Below are positions 46,905 through 58,857 of a stretch of DNA of 64,000 nt, one piece after another. Made by a program: the position numbers and the translations under genes. Position 1 is the stretch's first letter, and each line of letters opens with the position of its first letter. The notes beneath the pieces are model-generated. The model had not been told where the DNA came from. It did no database searches and saw only the letters and a program-made list of their open reading frames with translations. The DNA is taken from the NCBI RefSeq assembly GCF_023716925.1, contig NZ_JAMQQG010000003.1:1-64000 (forward strand), given 5' to 3'. The stretch comes from Frankia sp. R82. GTDB lineage: Bacteria; Actinomycetota; Actinomycetes; Frankiales; Frankiaceae.

Positions 46905-47990
46905 TCAGGGCCCGACCGGGTGGGCTCCGGGCTGGCGGTGGCGGAGCAGGGCGAGGCAGAGGGTCAGGCCGGGGCCGAACGCCATCGCGACGACGGTCGC
47001 GTCGGGGGTGAGGTCCCGGCGGAGCTGGTCGAGGACGAGCAGGACGGTGCCCGACGAGCAGTTGCCCCGGGCGGCGAGGGTGTCCCGGGTCGCCTCGGTC
47101 TGCGCCGGCAGCAGACCCAGGCGCTGCTCGACGACGTCGATGATGCGCGGACCGCCGGGATGCACGGCCCAGCCCTCGACGTCGGTGAGCGACGCCGCGA
47201 TCGGGGCCAGCAGCGCCGCCGTCGCCGCCCCGACGTGTGCGGCGAGCAGGTCGGGCACCCGCGGGGACAGGCCCATCCGGAAGCCGTGGTCGGTGACGTG
47301 CCAGCTCATCAGGTCCTCGGTGGCGGGCGCGGTCGCGGCCGTGGTGTCGAGCACCTCCAGGCCGTGGGTGGCGTCGGGAACGATGACGATCGCCGCGGCG
47401 GCGTCGCCGAACAGGGCGTGCGCGACGACCTGTTCCAGATCGCGGTGCGCCTGCGCCGGCTGGACGTGCAGGGAGGGCAGCTCCACGCAGAGCACGAGCG
47501 CGGGCAGCCCACGGGCCCGGACGAAGTCGGCCGCCGTTCCCAGGCTCGGGATCGCGGCGTAGCAGCCCATGTGGCCGACCAGCAGCCGACGCACCGACGG
47601 CGGCATGCCGAGGTCGCGGGCTAGCTGGATGTCCAGGCCCGGTGTCGCGTAACCGGTGCAGGACACGACGACGAACAGACCCAGCTCCGCGGCGCCGATC
47701 CCGGCGTCCGCCAGGGCACCGCGCACGGCCTGGCGGCCCAGCGGCCCGGCCTCGTCCACGTAGCGGCGCATCCGGGCCGCGGTCGACCAGGCGCTGATGT
47801 CCTCCTGGCGCGGATCCACCACGCCGTGGCGGGTGCGCACGCCCGCGCCGAGGAACAGCCGGCGGGCCAGTCCGTCACCCTGGTAGCGGTGCGCGAAGAC
47901 CTCGTCCCACAGGCTCTGCTGGTCAAAAGATCCGGGGAAGGCCGCGCTCATGCCGGTGATCACTGCCGCGGAGCGGGGCCCGGCGGTCAC
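46905..47990 (-). CDS. Type III polyketide synthase
   Basis: A 361-residue chalcone-synthase-superfamily enzyme. The catalytic triad is visible: Cys143 in VGHMGCYAA, His277 in WAVHPGGPRI and Asn310 in RGNCSSGT. It condenses malonyl-CoA units on an acyl-CoA starter. The GTG at 47990 overlaps the stop of the flavoprotein gene (GTGA) and keeps the normal N terminus (AAVITGMSAAFPGSFDQQ), which the ATG at 47951 would remove. It is the last gene of a coupled operon with UbiA, methyltransferase and flavoprotein genes. Product unknown; alkylresorcinol, pyrone or naphthalene type are open options. Confidence 0.92.
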   Translation of the reverse strand: MTAGPRSAAVITGMSAAFPGSFDQQSLWDEVFAHRYQGDGLARRLFLGAGVRTRHGVVDPRQEDISAWSTAARMRRYVDEAGPLGRQAVRGALADAGIGAAELGLFVVVSCTGYATPGLDIQLARDLGMPPSVRRLLVGHMGCYAAIPSLGTAADFVRARGLPALVLCVELPSLHVQPAQAHRDLEQVVAHALFGDAAAAIVIVPDATHGLEVLDTTAATAPATEDLMSWHVTDHGFRMGLSPRVPDLLAAHVGAATAALLAPIAASLTDVEGWAVHPGGPRIIDVVEQRLGLLPAQTEATRDTLAARGNCSSGTVLLVLDQLRRDLTPDATVVAMAFGPGLTLCLALLRHRQPGAHPVGP

Positions 47991-49315
47991 CACCGGGCCA
48001 CACTCGCGTCGGCCTCCGGGTCGCCGCCGAGCGCCGCGACGCCCAGCCAGTCCGCGCAGACATCGCTCGTCGCGGGTTGCAGCGAACCGCAGCGGGCATC
48101 GCGGTAGAGCCGTTCCAGCCGATGACCACGGCGGGTGACCGCGGTCCCGCAGGCCTCGACGATCGAGGCCGCGACGTCCTGCGCCGTGCGCCCGGCGAGC
48201 AGCTTGGCCCGCCACACCCACCGGTTTGTCAGGTCGCTGCCGGGATCGGCGTCGACCCGGCGCGCGCACTCGTCGACCACGGCGTCCAGCGCGGCCAGCG
48301 CGGCGTCCGCCTGCCCGAACCGGGCCCGCACGGCAGGCAGCCCGGCGAGGCCGGGTGGCGTCCCGGTGCCACGCCGGGTGCGGATGTGCTCGACCCCGGC
48401 GTCGAACACGGCTCGGCCCACGCCGGCGTAGACGGCCGCGTAGGAGGCGACCAGCCACTGCGGCATCCCCCGCGCGACCAGCAGGCTCAGCCCGGCGACG
48501 CCACCGACCAGCGCCTGCGCCGGAACCCACACGTCGAAGCGCACGTCGTGGCTGCCGGTGCCCCGCATACCGAGCGAGTCCCAGCTCGGTTCGACGCTCA
48601 CCCCGGGACCACGAGGCACGAGAAAATGACTGACCATGGCCGGTCCAGGCGAGCCGGACGGGGTGGACGGGGTGGACGGGGTGGACGGGGTGGACGGGGT
48701 GGACGGGTCGAGCAGACCAGCCGGATCGGCCGGGCTGGCCTGCGCCGCGCGGGCGGCGACGAAGAAGACGTCCGCGTGCGACGCTCCCGAGCAGAACGCC
48801 TTGACCCCGCTGATCCGATAGCCGTCGCCCTCGTGCCGGTAGCGGGTCGTCAACGCGGACAGCCGGGAGCCCGCACCCCGCTCACTCATCGCCACGGCGA
48901 TGAAGTCCCCGGCCGCGGCGCGCGCCAGCAGCTGGTCGCGGGCCAGGAAGAACGACTCCGGAGCGCCCATCGCCCGGGCGAGTTCGTCCGGCGTCCGGGC
49001 CAGCGCGCCCACCACCGACGTGTGCATGTTCAGCACCAGAGCGGTCGCGCCGCTGGCCGAGGCGAGTACGCGGGCGGCGTCCGCCCAGTCGGCGAAGCCG
49101 CCACCGAATCCGCCGAGCCGGGTCGGCACGAGCAGGCCCAGCAGGCCGGCGTCACGCAGCTCGTCGAGATCGGCCGCGGGCAGCTCGCCGTCCCGGTCGG
49201 CGGCACCGGCCCGTGCCGCGATGGCGTCGACGACCCCGTGGGCCAGCTGCGCACCGTCGACGCCGAGGATGGCACTGGAGCCGCTGGAGCGCGGCAACGG
49301 CGTCAGGGCGCTCAC
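47987..49315 (-). CDS. Acyl-CoA-dehydrogenase-like flavoprotein
   Basis: A 442-residue protein with the acyl-CoA dehydrogenase fold: N-terminal helices, VAMSERGAGS and WDSLGMRGTGSHDV in the middle, and a C-terminal four-helix region (VEACGTAVTRRGHRLERLYRDAR). The usual catalytic Glu is not obvious. It may desaturate the starter or, like class D flavin monooxygenases of the same fold, hydroxylate the polyketide. A STP-repeat linker encoded by a 9-bp minisatellite (48656-48708) interrupts the beta domain. GTG start 49315 overlaps the methyltransferase stop (GTGA). Confidence 0.82.
   Translation of the reverse strand: MSALTPLPRSSGSSAILGVDGAQLAHGVVDAIAARAGAADRDGELPAADLDELRDAGLLGLLVPTRLGGFGGGFADWADAARVLASASGATALVLNMHTSVVGALARTPDELARAMGAPESFFLARDQLLARAAAGDFIAVAMSERGAGSRLSALTTRYRHEGDGYRISGVKAFCSGASHADVFFVAARAAQASPADPAGLLDPSTPSTPSTPSTPSTPSGSPGPAMVSHFLVPRGPGVSVEPSWDSLGMRGTGSHDVRFDVWVPAQALVGGVAGLSLLVARGMPQWLVASYAAVYAGVGRAVFDAGVEHIRTRRGTGTPPGLAGLPAVRARFGQADAALAALDAVVDECARRVDADPGSDLTNRWVWRAKLLAGRTAQDVAASIVEACGTAVTRRGHRLERLYRDARCGSLQPATSDVCADWLGVAALGGDPEADASVARW
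48656..48708. repeat. In-frame 9-bp minisatellite in the flavoprotein gene
   Basis: Five exact copies of ggacggggt and a partial sixth, encoding (STP)n on the minus strand. Because 9 is a multiple of 3, copy changes keep the frame and alter only linker length. Confidence 0.9.
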
Positions 49316-50070
49316 CGTCCGCCCCGTCCGCTCGTGGCGCGCACGCCCACCGCCTGGTAGACCCCGGCGGTGGAGCCGGTCGGCAGCATCCGGACCGAGT
49401 CGGCCCGGCGGGCGAGCCATCGGGCGTAGTCGACGAGCGACGGACGCAGCCCGCCGACCAGCGTCATCTCGATGCCGGCCCGGTCGAGCGCGCGGGCCAG
49501 CCGGTCGGGCGCGACCAGCAGCGCCGGATCGTGCACCCGCGGCGGCGGTCCGCCGGGAAGGTGTTCGGCGATGCGGACCAGCGCCAGCCGGCAGAACAGG
49601 GTGTCCGCGAGGGTGTCGATGACGAGAGTGCCGCCCGGTGCGAGCACCCGACCGATGGCCGCGCAGGCGCCGTCCAGGTCGACCAGATGCTCGAACAGCT
49701 CGCCGGCGACGACGCAGGTAAACCGTCCGTCCGGAAACGGCAGCCGGTGCACGTCGGCCCGGATCGCCGCCACACCGTGACCGGCTGCCTGGCGCAACGC
49801 CGGTGCCGACAGATCGACGCCGACATGATGCCAGCCGGCAAGCCGTCCGGTGAGTGCCACCGAGAGCAGCCCTGCGCCACAGGCCAGGTCAAGCAGCGCG
49901 GCGCCGGGGTGGGGCGGGTTCGGAATGAGCCGTCCCCTGGCCTGCGCGAGCCAGCGCAGCGCGGCGAGTCGCCCGTGCGGCTGCCACCACTCGTCGGCGA
50001 GGTCGTCGTACTGCGCGGGATCGTTCCGGGGCCGACGCGGTTCGTGCCGTGGCAGCAGGGCAACGTTCAC
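49312..50070 (-). CDS. UbiG-like SAM-dependent methyltransferase
   Basis: A 252-residue class I methyltransferase. YDDLADEWWQPHGRLAALRW at the N terminus is the UbiG/Coq3 signature; the SAM site is LLDLACGAGLLSVALTG, with motif II VAGELFEHLVDLD. UbiG enzymes O-methylate polyprenylated catechols, so this enzyme probably O-methylates the aromatic product of the type III PKS, perhaps after prenylation. The GTG at 50070 follows GGGAGA; the longer frame lacks one. Confidence 0.87.
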   Translation of the reverse strand: MNVALLPRHEPRRPRNDPAQYDDLADEWWQPHGRLAALRWLAQARGRLIPNPPHPGAALLDLACGAGLLSVALTGRLAGWHHVGVDLSAPALRQAAGHGVAAIRADVHRLPFPDGRFTCVVAGELFEHLVDLDGACAAIGRVLAPGGTLVIDTLADTLFCRLALVRIAEHLPGGPPPRVHDPALLVAPDRLARALDRAGIEMTLVGGLRPSLVDYARWLARRADSVRMLPTGSTAGVYQAVGVRATSGRGGR

Positions 50071-50203
50071 AGGTCTCCCGAGGGGGCGTCGCAGCTGTCG
50101 GCCGACGGCAGCGCCAGCCTCCCGCCTGCACACAATGTGCCTGCATCAACTCCCAGAGTAACGAATCTGTGGACGAGTTCCCATCACCGAGAACCCGCGC
50201 ACG

Positions 50204-51136
50204 TCAGTGGAGCTGCACGCCGGCGGTGACGACGAGCGCGACGTCGATCGCGGCGACGGCCATCGCGGCGCGAAACGCCGACCGATCATCGCGCCGCAGG
50301 CCGAACCCGGTCAGCACCGCGACCGGGGCCAACGCGGCCAGCCGCCAGGCACAGCGCCGTGGCGGGCCGAGCGCGGCCACCACGGAGCCGGCCGCGAGCA
50401 GCACCGCGGCGGATCGGCGCGAACCGGTCGCGCCCAGCCGCTGCGGCAGGCCGCGCACCCCGGTGCGCACGTCGACCTCAAGATCGGGCAGAACATTGGT
50501 GAAGTGAGCGCCCGCACCCAGCAACCCCGCCGCCAGCGGCAGCCACCACGGGGTCGCCGGCCGGTCGGGCCGCCCCCGCACGACGAAGACCGGCAGCAGC
50601 GCGAACGAGAGCGCATAGGGGCCGGCGGACAGTGGGGTCGCCTTCAGCCCGAGGTTGTATCCCCACGCACTGGCGACCGCGACGAGGTGGACGGGCCCGG
50701 CCGGCCCGCCCGCGACCACCGACAGTGGCACGCAGGCCGCCAGCGCCGTCCCCGTGGCCACGGCCACCGTTTTCGGCGCAAGACCGGCTCCGACCAGAGG
50801 CTTGCCCGTGCGCTCGCCGGCCGCGTCCCGGTGCCGGTCGAGCAGGTCGTTGCTCCAGCCGACCGAGAGCTGACCGGCCAGCACCGCCGAGGCCACCGCG
50901 GCCACCCCACCTGCCCTGCGACCGCTGGCAACCGCGAGCGCCGACGCGAACACCGTCACCGCAACCGTCGGCTCCGGATGGCACGCCCACACCAACGCCG
51001 TCAGCTGCCCGTGAAGCCCCGGCCAACCCGTCGCGTCGGCTTCGGCTTCGGCTTCGGCTTCGGCTTCGGAAATCTTGACCCTGGGCCGCGTCCCGATGTC
51101 CGGACCCGGCGGTTTCTCCGATATCACGCCTGCCAT
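50204..51136 (-). CDS. UbiA-family membrane prenyltransferase
   Basis: A 310-residue membrane protein with about eight helices. The first Asp-rich motif is SNDLLDRHRDAAGERTGKP (NDxxDxxxD) and the second NVLPDLEVDVRTG, both needed for Mg-diphosphate binding. It should transfer an isoprenyl chain to an aromatic acceptor. An (EA)5 run near residue 27, from a 6-bp repeat (ttcggc, 51038-51067), precedes the first helix. It heads the operon with methyltransferase, flavoprotein and type III PKS genes; the 133-bp gap before the methyltransferase is the only sizable one. Confidence 0.9.
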   Translation of the reverse strand: MAGVISEKPPGPDIGTRPRVKISEAEAEAEAEADATGWPGLHGQLTALVWACHPEPTVAVTVFASALAVASGRRAGGVAAVASAVLAGQLSVGWSNDLLDRHRDAAGERTGKPLVGAGLAPKTVAVATGTALAACVPLSVVAGGPAGPVHLVAVASAWGYNLGLKATPLSAGPYALSFALLPVFVVRGRPDRPATPWWLPLAAGLLGAGAHFTNVLPDLEVDVRTGVRGLPQRLGATGSRRSAAVLLAAGSVVAALGPPRRCAWRLAALAPVAVLTGFGLRRDDRSAFRAAMAVAAIDVALVVTAGVQLH

Positions 51137-51737
51137 GATTTCCGATCACCGCCATCTGGCCAACCCGCGCGTGAGCAGGTGTTTCGTCCGGACCCGACAG
51201 AACCGAGCCTGGCGGACACGGTGGACGCCGTGCACGGGCGACTGGGCCGTCGTGGCCACCGCCCCGAACACCATCGTTGATCTGCTCCCCCGGCGCAGCG
51301 CCCTGGTCCGCTCGTCTGCGTCCTGCCGCTCCGAAGGGCAGGTCCCGGCGGCGAACATCGACCTTGTCGTGCTGGTCGCCGCGTCGTGCTCGTCGCCGCG
51401 TCGTGACCGTCGCCGCGTCGTGCTCGTCGCCGCGTCCTCGACCGAGCCGGCTCTCGGCCGGATCGAGGGGCTGCCCGCCCCGGCCCGCGAAAGCTCGGGG
51501 GTTCGCGGCGATCCGCCTGGCGGCCTGCCCGGACCCGGCCAGCGGCGGGAAGCGACGGCCGGCGGCACGTCGCGTATTCCCGACGAAGCCGGTCTTTAGC
51601 TGATGGTAACGATCCTCACAGTCCGCCGGCAGCCCTGTTCGCCTGGCGGGTAAAGGGCGAAGGTAGCCAGAGAAAGCCCGCGGCCGAGTACCCGGCTTTT
51701 CTCCCGGATTCCGTACGCCCAAAACCAGAAGGTATTG
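51137..51737. other. Divergent promoter region of prenyltransferase operon and MFS gene
   Basis: About 600 bases without a supported gene. The 17-bp repeat at 51367-51434 is the only ordered element. The last 140 bases are less GC-rich and probably carry the MFS promoter. An open frame through the repeat (51075-51599) has repeat-driven composition and no ribosome site, so it is not called. Confidence 0.6.
51367..51434. repeat. 17-bp tandem repeat, four units
   Basis: tcgtgct(c/g)gtcgccgcg with one tcgtgaccgtcgccgcg variant, units starting at 51367, 51384, 51401 and 51418. Non-coding as far as can be judged. Confidence 0.85.
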
Positions 51738-53816: not shown

Positions 53817-54695
53817 TCACCCGGACGGTAGTGAGGCCTTGGTGCCGGCAGGGCGCAGAAGTCGCCGCAGAATCCGGACCGACAGGTCGGGATAGTGGCG
53901 GGGCAGCAGACGCACCGCGAGGTCCACGAGCCTGGCATCGTTGCCGACCAGGATGCGCCCCCGGTTGGCCTCGACGCCCCGGAGAATGATGTCGGCCGCT
54001 CGTTCCGGGGGAAGCCGGAGAAACTTCTCGTTGTAGAGCGCGGCCCGCTGGACGCGCTCCTCGGTGATCTCCTCGCCGCGCTCGCGGGCCTGCGCCAGCG
54101 CGGCGTTGGCGATGTTGGTCCGCACTCCGCCGGGGTGGACGACGGTGACCCGGACGGGCTGGTTGGCCTGCAGCATCTCGATGCGCAGCGTCTCGGTGAA
54201 GCCCCGCACCCCGAACTTCGAGGTGCAGTAGGGGCCCAGTCCGCCCTGGGCCATGAAACCGTTGAGGCTGGAGATGTTGATGACGTGCCCGTCACCCGAG
54301 GCGATCAGATGAGGCAGGAACGCCTTCGTGCCGTGCAGCACGCCCCAGAGATTCACCGACAGCACCCGTTCGAACACGGCCCAGTCGGTCTCCAGGATCG
54401 TGTCACTGATACCGGCGATGCCGGCGTTGTTGTAGAGCTGGTGCACGACCCCGAAATGCGCGCGGACCTCGCCCGCGTATGTCTCGACCTCGGTGCGGTC
54501 GCTGACGTCGAGGTGGCGGGAGCGCACCTCGGTGCCGGTCGCCGCGACCAGGTCCACGGTCTCGGCCAGGCCGGTGGCGTTGACGTCGGCCAGCGCGAGC
54601 CGCGCGCCCCGGTCGGCAAGGCCCAGGGCAAGGGCCCGGCCGATACCCGAGGCGGCGCCGGTGACGACGGCGACCTTGTCCGCGATGGTGGTCAC
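53817..54695 (-). CDS. Short-chain dehydrogenase/reductase
   Basis: A 292-residue classical SDR: VTGAASGIGRALALGLA, ADVN for cofactor choice, NNAGIAG, ISSLNG and the catalytic YCTSK. The C-terminal 60 residues extend the fold as in SDRs associated with Baeyer-Villiger monooxygenases. GTG start overlaps the monooxygenase stop (GTGA). It probably oxidises an alcohol to the ketone used by that enzyme. Confidence 0.9.
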   Translation of the reverse strand: MTTIADKVAVVTGAASGIGRALALGLADRGARLALADVNATGLAETVDLVAATGTEVRSRHLDVSDRTEVETYAGEVRAHFGVVHQLYNNAGIAGISDTILETDWAVFERVLSVNLWGVLHGTKAFLPHLIASGDGHVINISSLNGFMAQGGLGPYCTSKFGVRGFTETLRIEMLQANQPVRVTVVHPGGVRTNIANAALAQARERGEEITEERVQRAALYNEKFLRLPPERAADIILRGVEANRGRILVGNDARLVDLAVRLLPRHYPDLSVRILRRLLRPAGTKASLPSG

Positions 54696-56188
54696 GATGC
54701 TGCTCCTGTGCGCTGACGGGAGTGGGACAGCCGCAGTTCGTCGTCCGCCACCGGCAGGTGCCGCAGGAGCCTGACGTCGCCGAGGTAGTCGAACGACGTG
54801 AGCCAGGGCTTGCGGTTGCCCTGCCGGGGCAGCTCGTCGAGGACGCGTTGGATGTAGCCGGCGCCGAAGTCGAGGAACGGACGGGTCCCCAGGTCCGGGT
54901 CGGCGACCACCGGGCAGGCCGTGTCGTAGCCGTGCGTGTCCATGTGCGTCAGCAGCCGGCAGAAGTGCTCGCACAGCAGGCCGATCTTGAGCGTCCAGGA
55001 GGAGGTGGTGTAGCCGACCATGTAGGCGAGGTTCGGCACTCCCGAAAGCATGAGGCCCTTGTAGGCGACCGTGCTTGACAGTCGCACGGGCTCGCCGTCG
55101 ACGGTCAGCGGCACACCCCCGAACGCCTGGACGTTCAGCCCGGTCGCGGTCACGATGACGTCCGCCGTCAGCTCCCGTCCGGAGGCCAGCAGCACTCCGT
55201 TCTCGGTGAAGGTGGTGACACGATCCGTGACGACCGAGACCGCGCCCCGGCGGATCGCCGTGAACAGGTCGCCGCCCGGAGCGAAACACAGTCGCTGGTC
55301 CCAGGGGTCGTACGGCGGGCGGAAGTGTTCGTCGACCGCATAGCCCGCCGGCAGCATCCGGACGTTCATCCGGCGGATGAGTCGCCGGGCGGCCTTCGGG
55401 AACCGCCGGCAGAACCGCCACATCGCCTGCTGGCGAAGGATGTAGAGAGTACGGGCGAGGGTGTGGGCACGCTTCTCGCCGAATATCCGGCGCAGACGGA
55501 TGACCAGCGCGTCCCGGGGCGGGGTGGCCAGGATGTAGGTCGGCGTCCGTTGCAGCATGGTGACGTGCGCCGCGGTGTCGGCCAACGCCGGAACCAGCGT
55601 CACCGCCGTCGCGCCACTGCCGATCACCACGATTCGCCGGCCGGTGACATCGAGATCGGCCGGCCAGTGCTGGGGGTGGATGATCTGCCCGCGGAAGCGT
55701 TCCCGCCCGTCGAAGTGCGGGGTGAAACCCTCGTCGTAGCGGTAGTAGCCGGTGGCGCACAGCAACCAGGAGCAGGTCAGCTTCGAGCGGGCACCGGACT
55801 CGGTGTTCACCACCTCGACCGTCCAGCGGGCGTCCGGCGACGACCACGACGCGCTGACGACCTTCGTGTGGTAGCGGATGTCGCGCTCGAGGTCGAACTC
55901 GCGGGCGGTCTCGCGCAGGTAGGCCAGGATCTGCTCGCCGTCGGCGAGAAACTTCTCGCCCCGCCACGGCTTGAACGCATAGCCGAAGGTGTGCAGATCG
56001 GAGTCCGACCGGATGCCCGGGTAGCGGAACAGGTCCCAGGTGCCGCCGAGCGCGCCGCGTGCCTCGAGGATCGCGTGGCTGCGCTGCGGATGCTCCCGCC
56101 GCAGGTAGTACGCGGCTCCGAGGCCGGAGATGCCCGCCCCGACGATGAGGACGTCGAGGTGTTCGAGTTGGGCGGCAGCAGACGGCAC
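54692..56188 (-). CDS. Baeyer-Villiger-type flavin monooxygenase (EthA-like)
   Basis: A 498-residue FAD/NADPH enzyme: FAD site LIVGAGISGLGAAYYL (about 14-29), the fingerprint FRGQIIHPQHWP (FxGxxxHxxxW), a second dinucleotide site IVVIGSGATAVTLVP, and ATG-containing VTATGLNVQAFGG. Length and motifs match EthA and related monooxygenases that convert ketones to esters or lactones. GTG start at 56188. Divergent from a PucR-family regulator across a short dyad-rich gap. Confidence 0.92.
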   Translation of the reverse strand: MPSAAAQLEHLDVLIVGAGISGLGAAYYLRREHPQRSHAILEARGALGGTWDLFRYPGIRSDSDLHTFGYAFKPWRGEKFLADGEQILAYLRETAREFDLERDIRYHTKVVSASWSSPDARWTVEVVNTESGARSKLTCSWLLCATGYYRYDEGFTPHFDGRERFRGQIIHPQHWPADLDVTGRRIVVIGSGATAVTLVPALADTAAHVTMLQRTPTYILATPPRDALVIRLRRIFGEKRAHTLARTLYILRQQAMWRFCRRFPKAARRLIRRMNVRMLPAGYAVDEHFRPPYDPWDQRLCFAPGGDLFTAIRRGAVSVVTDRVTTFTENGVLLASGRELTADVIVTATGLNVQAFGGVPLTVDGEPVRLSSTVAYKGLMLSGVPNLAYMVGYTTSSWTLKIGLLCEHFCRLLTHMDTHGYDTACPVVADPDLGTRPFLDFGAGYIQRVLDELPRQGNRKPWLTSFDYLGDVRLLRHLPVADDELRLSHSRQRTGAAS

Positions 56189-56326: not shown

Positions 56327-57565
56327 ATGGTGAGCTCCTGGGACCCGCCGTCCGGCAGGGTTCGGGAACTCATGCGGCGCGGTGCCGAGCTGGTCCTGCA
56401 TCTGCCGCCCGCCTGGCTGGACGAGCTGGACGAGGCGACCCTCTCGGGTCCACACGGCCAGCAGATCGCTGCGGATCCCGTCCTTGCCGCGGCCATCCGG
56501 CGGGCCAACCGCTCGAACCTGCTGCACTGGGCGGCGGCGAACATCCGCGCGCCGGGCCAGCGCGTGCCGGCCAACCTTGCGGAGGTGCCGCTGGGGATCG
56601 CCCGTGACCTGGTCCGCCGCGGCCTGGACGACACGATGCTGGATGCCTACCGATCGGGCCAGAGCGTCGCGCTGCGACACTGGATCGAGATCGTCTTCTC
56701 CCTCACCTCCGACCCGCAGGAACTGCGAGCCGTGCTGGACGTGTCCTGCCAGTCGATCGCCGCCTTCGTCGAGGACACGATCGTCGCGGTCGCCGCCCAG
56801 ATCACCCGGGAGCGCGCCGCCCTGACCCAGGGAACCCATGCCGAGCGTCGCGAAGCGGTCACCCTGCTGCTGGACGGGGCGCCGCTGTCCCCACGACGGG
56901 CCGAGCAGCGACTCGGCTACCGTCTCACCGGCGCGCACACCGCGGCCGTCGTCTGGAGCGACGACCCCGACACCGACCTCGGTGCGCTCGACCGTGCCGC
57001 CGACCTGCTCGCCACGGCTGCCGGGGACCCCCAACCGCTGACCGTGCTCGCCAGCGCGGCGACCCGCTGGGTCTGGGTGCACGGCACACCGGACCTGGCC
57101 CGGCTACGAGCCGAGGCCACCGATCTGCCGGCCGTACGCATCGCGATCGGCCCGTGCCGACCGGACCTCGACGGGTTCCGGCGCAGCCACCTTGATGCCC
57201 TCACCGTCCAACGGATCCTCGCCCGGCTCGCCTCGCCCCAGCAGATCGCCACCCATGCGGACATCGAACTCGTCGCCCTGTGCACCACCGACGGCGAACG
57301 CGCCGCCCGGTTCGTGGGCAGTGCCCTCGGCGATCTGGAGACCGCCGCGCCCGAACTGCGCGAGGCGGTACGCGCCTTCCTCTCCACCGGGTGCAACGCC
57401 ACTGCCGCCGCGGCTCGGCTCTACCTGCACCGCAACACCCTGCTGCGCCGCCTGGCCCGGGCCGAACGGCTGCTGCCGACACCGCTGTCCGACAGCCTCC
57501 TGCCGGTCGGTGTCGCCCTGGAGATCCACCGCTGGCGCGGCACCGCGCCCCGAGCTCCCCGGTAG
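56327..57565 (+). CDS. PucR-family transcriptional regulator
   Basis: A 412-residue regulator: N-terminal helical domain, a GGDEF-like central region without catalytic motif, and the C-terminal PucR HTH (LREAVRAFLSTGCNATAAAARLYLHRNTLLRRLARAE). It is divergent from the monooxygenase/SDR operon and probably controls it in response to the substrate. Confidence 0.9.
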   Translation: MVSSWDPPSGRVRELMRRGAELVLHLPPAWLDELDEATLSGPHGQQIAADPVLAAAIRRANRSNLLHWAAANIRAPGQRVPANLAEVPLGIARDLVRRGLDDTMLDAYRSGQSVALRHWIEIVFSLTSDPQELRAVLDVSCQSIAAFVEDTIVAVAAQITRERAALTQGTHAERREAVTLLLDGAPLSPRRAEQRLGYRLTGAHTAAVVWSDDPDTDLGALDRAADLLATAAGDPQPLTVLASAATRWVWVHGTPDLARLRAEATDLPAVRIAIGPCRPDLDGFRRSHLDALTVQRILARLASPQQIATHADIELVALCTTDGERAARFVGSALGDLETAAPELREAVRAFLSTGCNATAAAARLYLHRNTLLRRLARAERLLPTPLSDSLLPVGVALEIHRWRGTAPRAPR

Positions 57566-57694: not shown

Positions 57695-58678
57695 TCACTC
57701 GGTCGGGGGCTGCTCCTGGTGTCGGCCGGAGCTGAACATCCAGGCCAGGTGTGCGCCCGGGATGTCGCGGATGGTGCGCACCACGAGGCGTAGCCGGTCC
57801 GGGTCCACCGTCGGTGCCAGGTGCCGCGCGTCGGCGAGCAGGACGCGTTCGGCTTCGCGAAGGTCGTGCAACCGCCGGGTGATGTGTGCGTACACCTGGT
57901 CGAGTGCGGTGTGCTCGTCGCAGCCCGTGGCGTGTCGCAGCACGAGGACATAGTTGGTGGTCTCGCCGCGCGCGGCCTCCCGGGGCAGGGACACCACATC
58001 GTTGCACCAGGCGACGAGGTCGCTGGAAGCCGCGCACAACTCGGTCCAGCTGCTGGTGGCGACGAGGTCCGGGGGGATTTCGGTCTGGTGGACGACTTCC
58101 AGCAGATCGACCATGAACATGGCGTTGTCGTCGCGGCGCAGGGACGGATATTCGGCCGGGGTGGCCAGTGTGCCGTTGTGCCGGTGGGCGATCTGGGTGA
58201 GAAACGCATCGCGATGGTGGTGGATGTGCTCGAGGAAGCGGCGACGCCACTGCGGGGACATCTCCCGGGCCGTCCGGGGCCACAGGTCCGCCAGTGCGGT
58301 GACCGGGGCAGAGGCCGTGCTGGGATCGGACCGTCCCTCGACGATCGAGGTGATCGCGGCGTAGGTCGTGTGCACGAGCTCGGCGCGCAGGCCCATCGAC
58401 CCCTCGTCCTGCTCGTCATCGAGGTGGAACAGCCACAGCACCCACCGGGCGTAGACCTCGACGTCGCTCGGATGGGCGTCGGGCAGGATGCGCGCGGCCA
58501 ACAGGTGGAATCCGGCGGCGTCGAGCCGGGCACGCTCCCGGGCGTCGGTTACCAGACCGACCCGGGATGCCCAGGTCAGGAGATGCTCGCCGATCTGTTC
58601 GGCCTCGGGATGGATCCGCTCGGGGATGGGAATGCCGAAGTCGAGTCTGGACACGCCGGCAGCGGAGAGCTGGGTCAT
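57695..58678 (-). CDS. Class I terpene synthase
   Basis: A 327-residue cyclase. The Asp-rich motif LDDEQD (Asp87-Asp91) and NSE triad CNDVVSLPRE (Asn226, Ser230, Glu234) bind three Mg ions. The pyrophosphate-sensor Arg lies in YPSLRRD (about 181). The usual C-terminal Arg-Tyr pair reads SSGRHQ, a His in place of Tyr. Length fits a sesquiterpene synthase; product unknown. The ATG at 58678 follows GAGG nine bases upstream. No P450 or prenyl-diphosphate synthase is adjacent, only a MerR-like regulator gene upstream on the same strand. Confidence 0.9.
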   Translation of the reverse strand: MTQLSAAGVSRLDFGIPIPERIHPEAEQIGEHLLTWASRVGLVTDARERARLDAAGFHLLAARILPDAHPSDVEVYARWVLWLFHLDDEQDEGSMGLRAELVHTTYAAITSIVEGRSDPSTASAPVTALADLWPRTAREMSPQWRRRFLEHIHHHRDAFLTQIAHRHNGTLATPAEYPSLRRDDNAMFMVDLLEVVHQTEIPPDLVATSSWTELCAASSDLVAWCNDVVSLPREAARGETTNYVLVLRHATGCDEHTALDQVYAHITRRLHDLREAERVLLADARHLAPTVDPDRLRLVVRTIRDIPGAHLAWMFSSGRHQEQPPTE

Positions 58679-58730
58679 GAGCTGGCCTCGGTGACAGAGA
58701 AAGGTACGGGCGGCGGACGCGCCCGACTCC

Positions 58731-58753
58731 GGTGCCTTCACGACAAAGGCACC
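58731..58753 (-). promoter_or_regulatory. Inverted repeat in the terpene synthase leader
   Basis: GGTGCCTT (58731-58738) and AAGGCACC (58746-58753) are perfect 8-bp arms with a 7-nt spacer, 53-75 bp upstream of the ATG at 58678. It may be the operator of the adjacent MerR-like regulator or a leader hairpin; MerR sites are usually dyads of this size. Confidence 0.55.
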
Positions 58754-58857
58754 ACACTCCGTCATTATCACGCGACAAGACGCCCGGTGACTTAAGGACT
58801 ACGTCCCGAGTGGCGTGGATCCCTTTCCTGCCGTGAGTCAGGCAGACGGCCTGGCGG

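Follow-up and report, generated by a model that had tools for sequence, protein, structure and literature searches.

The agq cluster of Actinoplanes missouriensis 431 was reportedly linked by Awakawa et al. in 2011 to alkyl-O-dihydrogeranyl-methoxyhydroquinones. The srs operon of Streptomyces griseus (srsABC) also begins from an alkylresorcinol made by a type III polyketide synthase (PKS), which is then tailored; it is not known to have a prenyltransferase, and its flavoprotein hydroxylase is of a different kind. The phenolic lipids of srs are oxidised to alkylquinones. A. missouriensis 431 is described as making 6-alkyl-4-O-dihydrogeranyl-2-methoxyhydroquinones, and a paper on a dihydroxyphenazine prenyltransferase (PMC4044012) cites the agq work for a membrane prenyltransferase which O-prenylates a small polyketide. 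A literature search for the gene set described below matched one paper, on loseolamycins (PMC7587189), in which the table for a BAC from Micromonospora endolithica lists, in order, RadA, a hypothetical protein, a UbiA family prenyltransferase, a putative methyltransferase, an acyl-CoA dehydrogenase, the losA type III PKS, two hypothetical proteins, CarD, IspD, IspF and a TPR protein. Activation of losA yielded alkylresorcinols (PMC7587189); these published products, from S. albus carrying a strong promoter before losA only, are untailored. The same antiSMASH call is reported by many genome papers, LC-MS did not show the compounds in Phytohabitans strains with orthologous clusters, and among the searchable papers none was found that names the cluster in a Frankia genome.

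The window (the whole stretch of DNA analysed, 64,000 nucleotides from the 6.9 Mb draft genome of Frankia sp. R82) contains four minus-strand genes at 51136-46905, transcribed in the order UbiA, methyltransferase, acyl-CoA-dehydrogenase-fold (ACAD-fold) flavoprotein and type III PKS. The first encodes a UbiA-family membrane prenyltransferase of 310 amino acids (50204-51136) and is followed, after a gap of 133 nt, by the gene for a SAM-dependent, UbiG-like methyltransferase of 252 amino acids (49312-50070), for which the best start was found to be the GTG at 50070, with GGGAGACCT before it, and the stop is at 49312. The ACAD-fold flavoprotein (442 amino acids, 47987-49315, GTG start at 49315) and the AgqA/LosA-like PKS (361 amino acids, 46905-47990, GTG start at 47990) complete the set, and exact GTGA overlaps were observed at both the methyltransferase/ACAD and the ACAD/PKS junctions. 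An initial annotation, made from the sequence before this analysis, had described an operon of these four gene types headed by the prenyltransferase gene and with GTGA overlaps between the last three genes; the layout agreed on each count, the 133-nt gap limiting the overlaps to those three genes, and Pfam matches for all four proteins were well above cut-off.

A promoter scan of the locus found none, and a terminator scan gave no clear excess compared to shuffled sequence. The operon neighbours in the window encode a glyoxalase, a DUF4232 protein, a sulphate permease and an MFS transporter; the transporter and the glyoxalase were considered as pathway members and dropped, as no link to the pathway was found. 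Two perfect or near-perfect tandem repeats lie within the operon, a (TCGGCT)n hexamer (51036-51069) encoding an EA repeat at the N-terminus of the UbiA-family protein and a (GGACGGGGT)n 9-mer (48656-48707) encoding STP repeats in the ACAD-fold protein, the latter in a low-confidence stretch of the predicted structure that is variable among orthologues. A 17-bp tandem repeat array, likewise perfect or near-perfect, is located upstream of the operon (51366-51444).

A search of the whole A. missouriensis 431 genome identified one PF02797 (chalcone/stilbene-synthase-family) gene, and each of the four window proteins has an orthologue at that locus (PKS 58%, ACAD-fold protein 57%, methyltransferase 49% and UbiA 45% identity), with RadA to one side and CarD, IspD, IspF and a TPR protein to the other, a context shared with los. 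The xylose isomerase of the genome used was identical over 393 residues to PDB 1xim, which is the A. missouriensis enzyme. We conclude that the sole type III PKS gene of A. missouriensis marks the agq cluster, with los as the equivalent in Micromonospora, and that the Frankia operon has orthologous content. The methyltransferase, ACAD and PKS genes have the same order and strand in agq and in Frankia; in agq, however, UbiA is transcribed divergently from its three companions, whereas in Frankia it leads the operon and is co-directional, and the position of agq between RadA and CarD-IspD-IspF has no equivalent in the Frankia window, which is without those flanks. These differences are minor. 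The los genes, compared by the published gene table, are in the same order as those of Frankia, and a locus with both the layout and the flanks of A. missouriensis, again with UbiA divergent, was found in Mangrovihabitans endophyticus (Micromonosporaceae). The statement in the initial annotation that the set could not be matched to a known pathway was not upheld, since the four-gene set is that of agq/los and is already tied to characterised metabolites. The set is thus real but a copy of an already characterised family, and an apparently orphan operon is now placed in a characterised pathway.

The pathway is widespread, with the PKS present in 338 of 355 genomes of Micromonosporaceae (the family of Actinoplanes) and in most of the Frankia sampled (9 of 12 further genomes searched within the genus). 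Among named organisms, Ca. Frankia nodulisporulans AgTrS has the PKS nearest to that of the window (93% identity), and the two grouped with full support on the PKS tree; other Frankia were at approximately 80% and Parafrankia at approximately 73%. All four genes occur in identical order in Ca. Frankia nodulisporulans (88, 95, 87 and 93% identity for UbiA, methyltransferase, ACAD and PKS, respectively) and orthologues recur in many actinobacteria, which argues that the operon is not a chance arrangement. The order UbiA, methyltransferase, ACAD, PKS on one strand was found at nine loci, each in a named Frankia or Parafrankia with sufficient flanking sequence. In the Geodermatophilaceae loci recovered the methyltransferase gene was directly beside that of the PKS and ACAD and UbiA genes were not detected nearby, while Pseudonocardia loci have UbiA, methyltransferase and PKS genes without an ACAD gene; locus counts across the actinobacteria are rough because many loci have short flanks. 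Mapping presence of ACAD on the PKS tree needed about a dozen changes, some of which probably stem from loose-threshold matches, and this suggests that hydroxylation and prenylation are accessory modules distributed patchily around a PKS-methyltransferase core. Two Blastococcus loci scored as bearing ACAD at a loose threshold were rejected, as the matches were lost at 1e-8 and are probably to unrelated dehydrogenases. One PKS that falls inside Blastococcus on the tree comes from a record marked as unverified and titled Bacillus sp. AZ43, the organism of which is probably mislabelled.

The PKS contains both expected domains (Chal_sti_synt_C, PF02797, 2.4e-21; Chal_sti_synt_N, PF00195, 1.1e-18), and its catalytic Cys and His were invariant in 111 aligned sequences, with the Asn present in 110 and one gap. 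It is the expected alkylresorcinol synthase of the pathway. The solved structures closest to it by sequence are the mycobacterial Pks18 and Pks11, and an alpha-pyrone of the kind made by those enzymes might on that basis be proposed as its product; this seems most improbable, as a nearest PDB match at such a distance tells little of the product and alkylresorcinols are the products of LosA and AgqA, the counterparts of the window PKS by gene neighbourhood. A second type III PKS gene is present in the same genome outside the window (C320:9800-10717; 32% identity to the window PKS).

The ACAD-fold protein matched Acyl-CoA_dh_M (PF02770, 4.2e-17), and the initial annotation had allowed it either to desaturate or to hydroxylate. 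It carries LQPATSD in place of the YEGTSE catalytic motif, with Pro414 where the catalytic Glu would be, and Pro occupied this MCAD/SCAD-type position in 40 of 40 aligned ACAD-fold sequences, with the motif LQPATSD or near to it. The presumed isovaleryl-CoA-dehydrogenase-type Glu site aligned to Trp (alignment with 2dvl), so that the acyl-CoA dehydrogenase catalytic Glu is absent from both the C-terminal-domain site and the isovaleryl-type site. The structure of the protein was predicted with a mean pLDDT of 74, and many of the best Foldseek matches were flavin monooxygenases (5z8t, KijD3, DszC and nitrososynthases). These ACAD-fold monooxygenases (DszC/TdsC among them) share the fold and are among the top Foldseek and sequence matches, at approximately 25% identity to the window enzyme. 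Loss of the dehydrogenase Glu favours hydroxylation over desaturation, and the better reading of the protein is a ring hydroxylase of the flavin monooxygenase type; with the PKS, methyltransferase and prenyltransferase assigned, hydroxylation would fall to it. An ACAD-fold protein without the dehydrogenase base is thereby predicted to be an alkylresorcinol ring hydroxylase.

Were the protein instead a true dehydrogenase, desaturating the acyl starter or the alkyl chain, an unlinked enzyme would have to hydroxylate the ring. The Pfam domains and fold are those of acyl-CoA dehydrogenases, and VIA-align Z scores, equally high for dehydrogenases and monooxygenases, did not separate the two classes and were no lower for the former; such a role is nevertheless unlikely given the substituted residues at both Glu sites, and the product class requires an extra ring hydroxyl for which the ACAD-fold gene is the sole unassigned gene of the four. 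No alternative hydroxylase was identified beside the PKS among the flanks tested at ACAD-less loci (Kineosporia, Blastococcus, Goekera, Pseudonocardia and a Frankia MAG). Those flanks encode unrelated proteins (nucleotidyltransferase, peptidase, glycosyltransferase, methyltransferase, MFS, histidine kinase, NUDIX and TetR), and exchange for a different hydroxylase is therefore without support in the flanks tested.

No NCBIfam equivalog scored above its own cut-off for any of the four proteins. The methyltransferase (Methyltransf_11, PF08241, 4.2e-18) scored 65.3 bits against the UbiG equivalog TIGR01983, under the cut-off of 102.95, and is consequently described as UbiG-like rather than UbiG, while the prenyltransferase likewise lies outside the curated quinone-pathway equivalogs. 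The latter matched PF01040 (2.4e-16; 60.2 bits against a cut-off of 34.2), and the Asn and Asp residues of its motifs, NDxxDxxxD and a second DxxxD, were invariant in 28 aligned orthologues; alignments indicated that catalytic residues are kept across the methyltransferase family as well as the PKS and UbiA families. The methyltransferase is the expected O-methyltransferase. By analogy with the reported A. missouriensis enzyme, the UbiA-family protein is expected to be an O-prenyltransferase, a refinement of the prenylation previously assigned to it.

Taken together, the locus is very probably a Frankia agq/los-type phenolic-lipid operon following a route of polyketide synthesis, hydroxylation, methylation and prenylation. 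The name of the A. missouriensis product fixes the chemistry: the two alkylresorcinol oxygens are meta to the alkyl group, one being methylated and the other prenylated, and the third oxygen is new, its carbon lying between the one that bears the alkyl group and the one that bears the methoxyl. In the proposed scheme the type III PKS would condense a long-chain acyl-CoA with three malonyl-CoA to a cyclised 5-alkylresorcinol, and the ACAD-fold flavin monooxygenase, drawing its reduced flavin from an unlinked reductase, would hydroxylate the ring at the carbon that lies between the alkyl chain and one of the hydroxyls. The resorcinol oxygen adjoining the new hydroxyl would then be O-methylated by the methyltransferase and the other O-prenylated by the UbiA-family enzyme, the end product being a 6-alkyl-4-O-prenyl-2-methoxyhydroquinone. 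We infer what Frankia makes, in which order the tailoring steps occur and that the ACAD-fold enzyme is the hydroxylase. The match to agq/los bears out the idea in the initial annotation that a type III PKS leads to a phenolic lipid or hydroquinone bearing prenyl and methyl groups.

At 45-58%, identity between the Frankia proteins and those of A. missouriensis is moderate, and the chain, the prenyl donor or the methylation site may therefore differ. It is possible, if doubtful, that the tailoring enzymes have drifted such that the same class of pathway leads in Frankia to another end product (such as a geranyl or farnesyl ether left unreduced, a C-prenylated ring or a quinone form): the UbiA and methyltransferase proteins share no more than 45% and 49% identity with their A. 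missouriensis orthologues, the UbiA gene differs in orientation and heads the operon, and the operon is without a reductase gene for the dihydrogeranyl group. All four orthologues are nonetheless present with their motifs kept, and identity to A. missouriensis reaches 57-58% for the PKS and the ACAD-fold enzyme. Divergence of the Frankia version towards a prenylated phenolic lipid other than the Actinoplanes compounds and with its own role, for example as a symbiont envelope lipid, is considered very unlikely, and the analysis yielded nothing in favour of a symbiotic role.

Elsewhere in the window a terpene synthase gene was identified on the minus strand (57695-58771; Terpene_syn_C_2, 8.8e-43), close to genes for an FMO-like monooxygenase (54692-56188), an SDR (53817-54710) and a PucR-type regulator (56327-57565), and the four may form a small terpene cluster.
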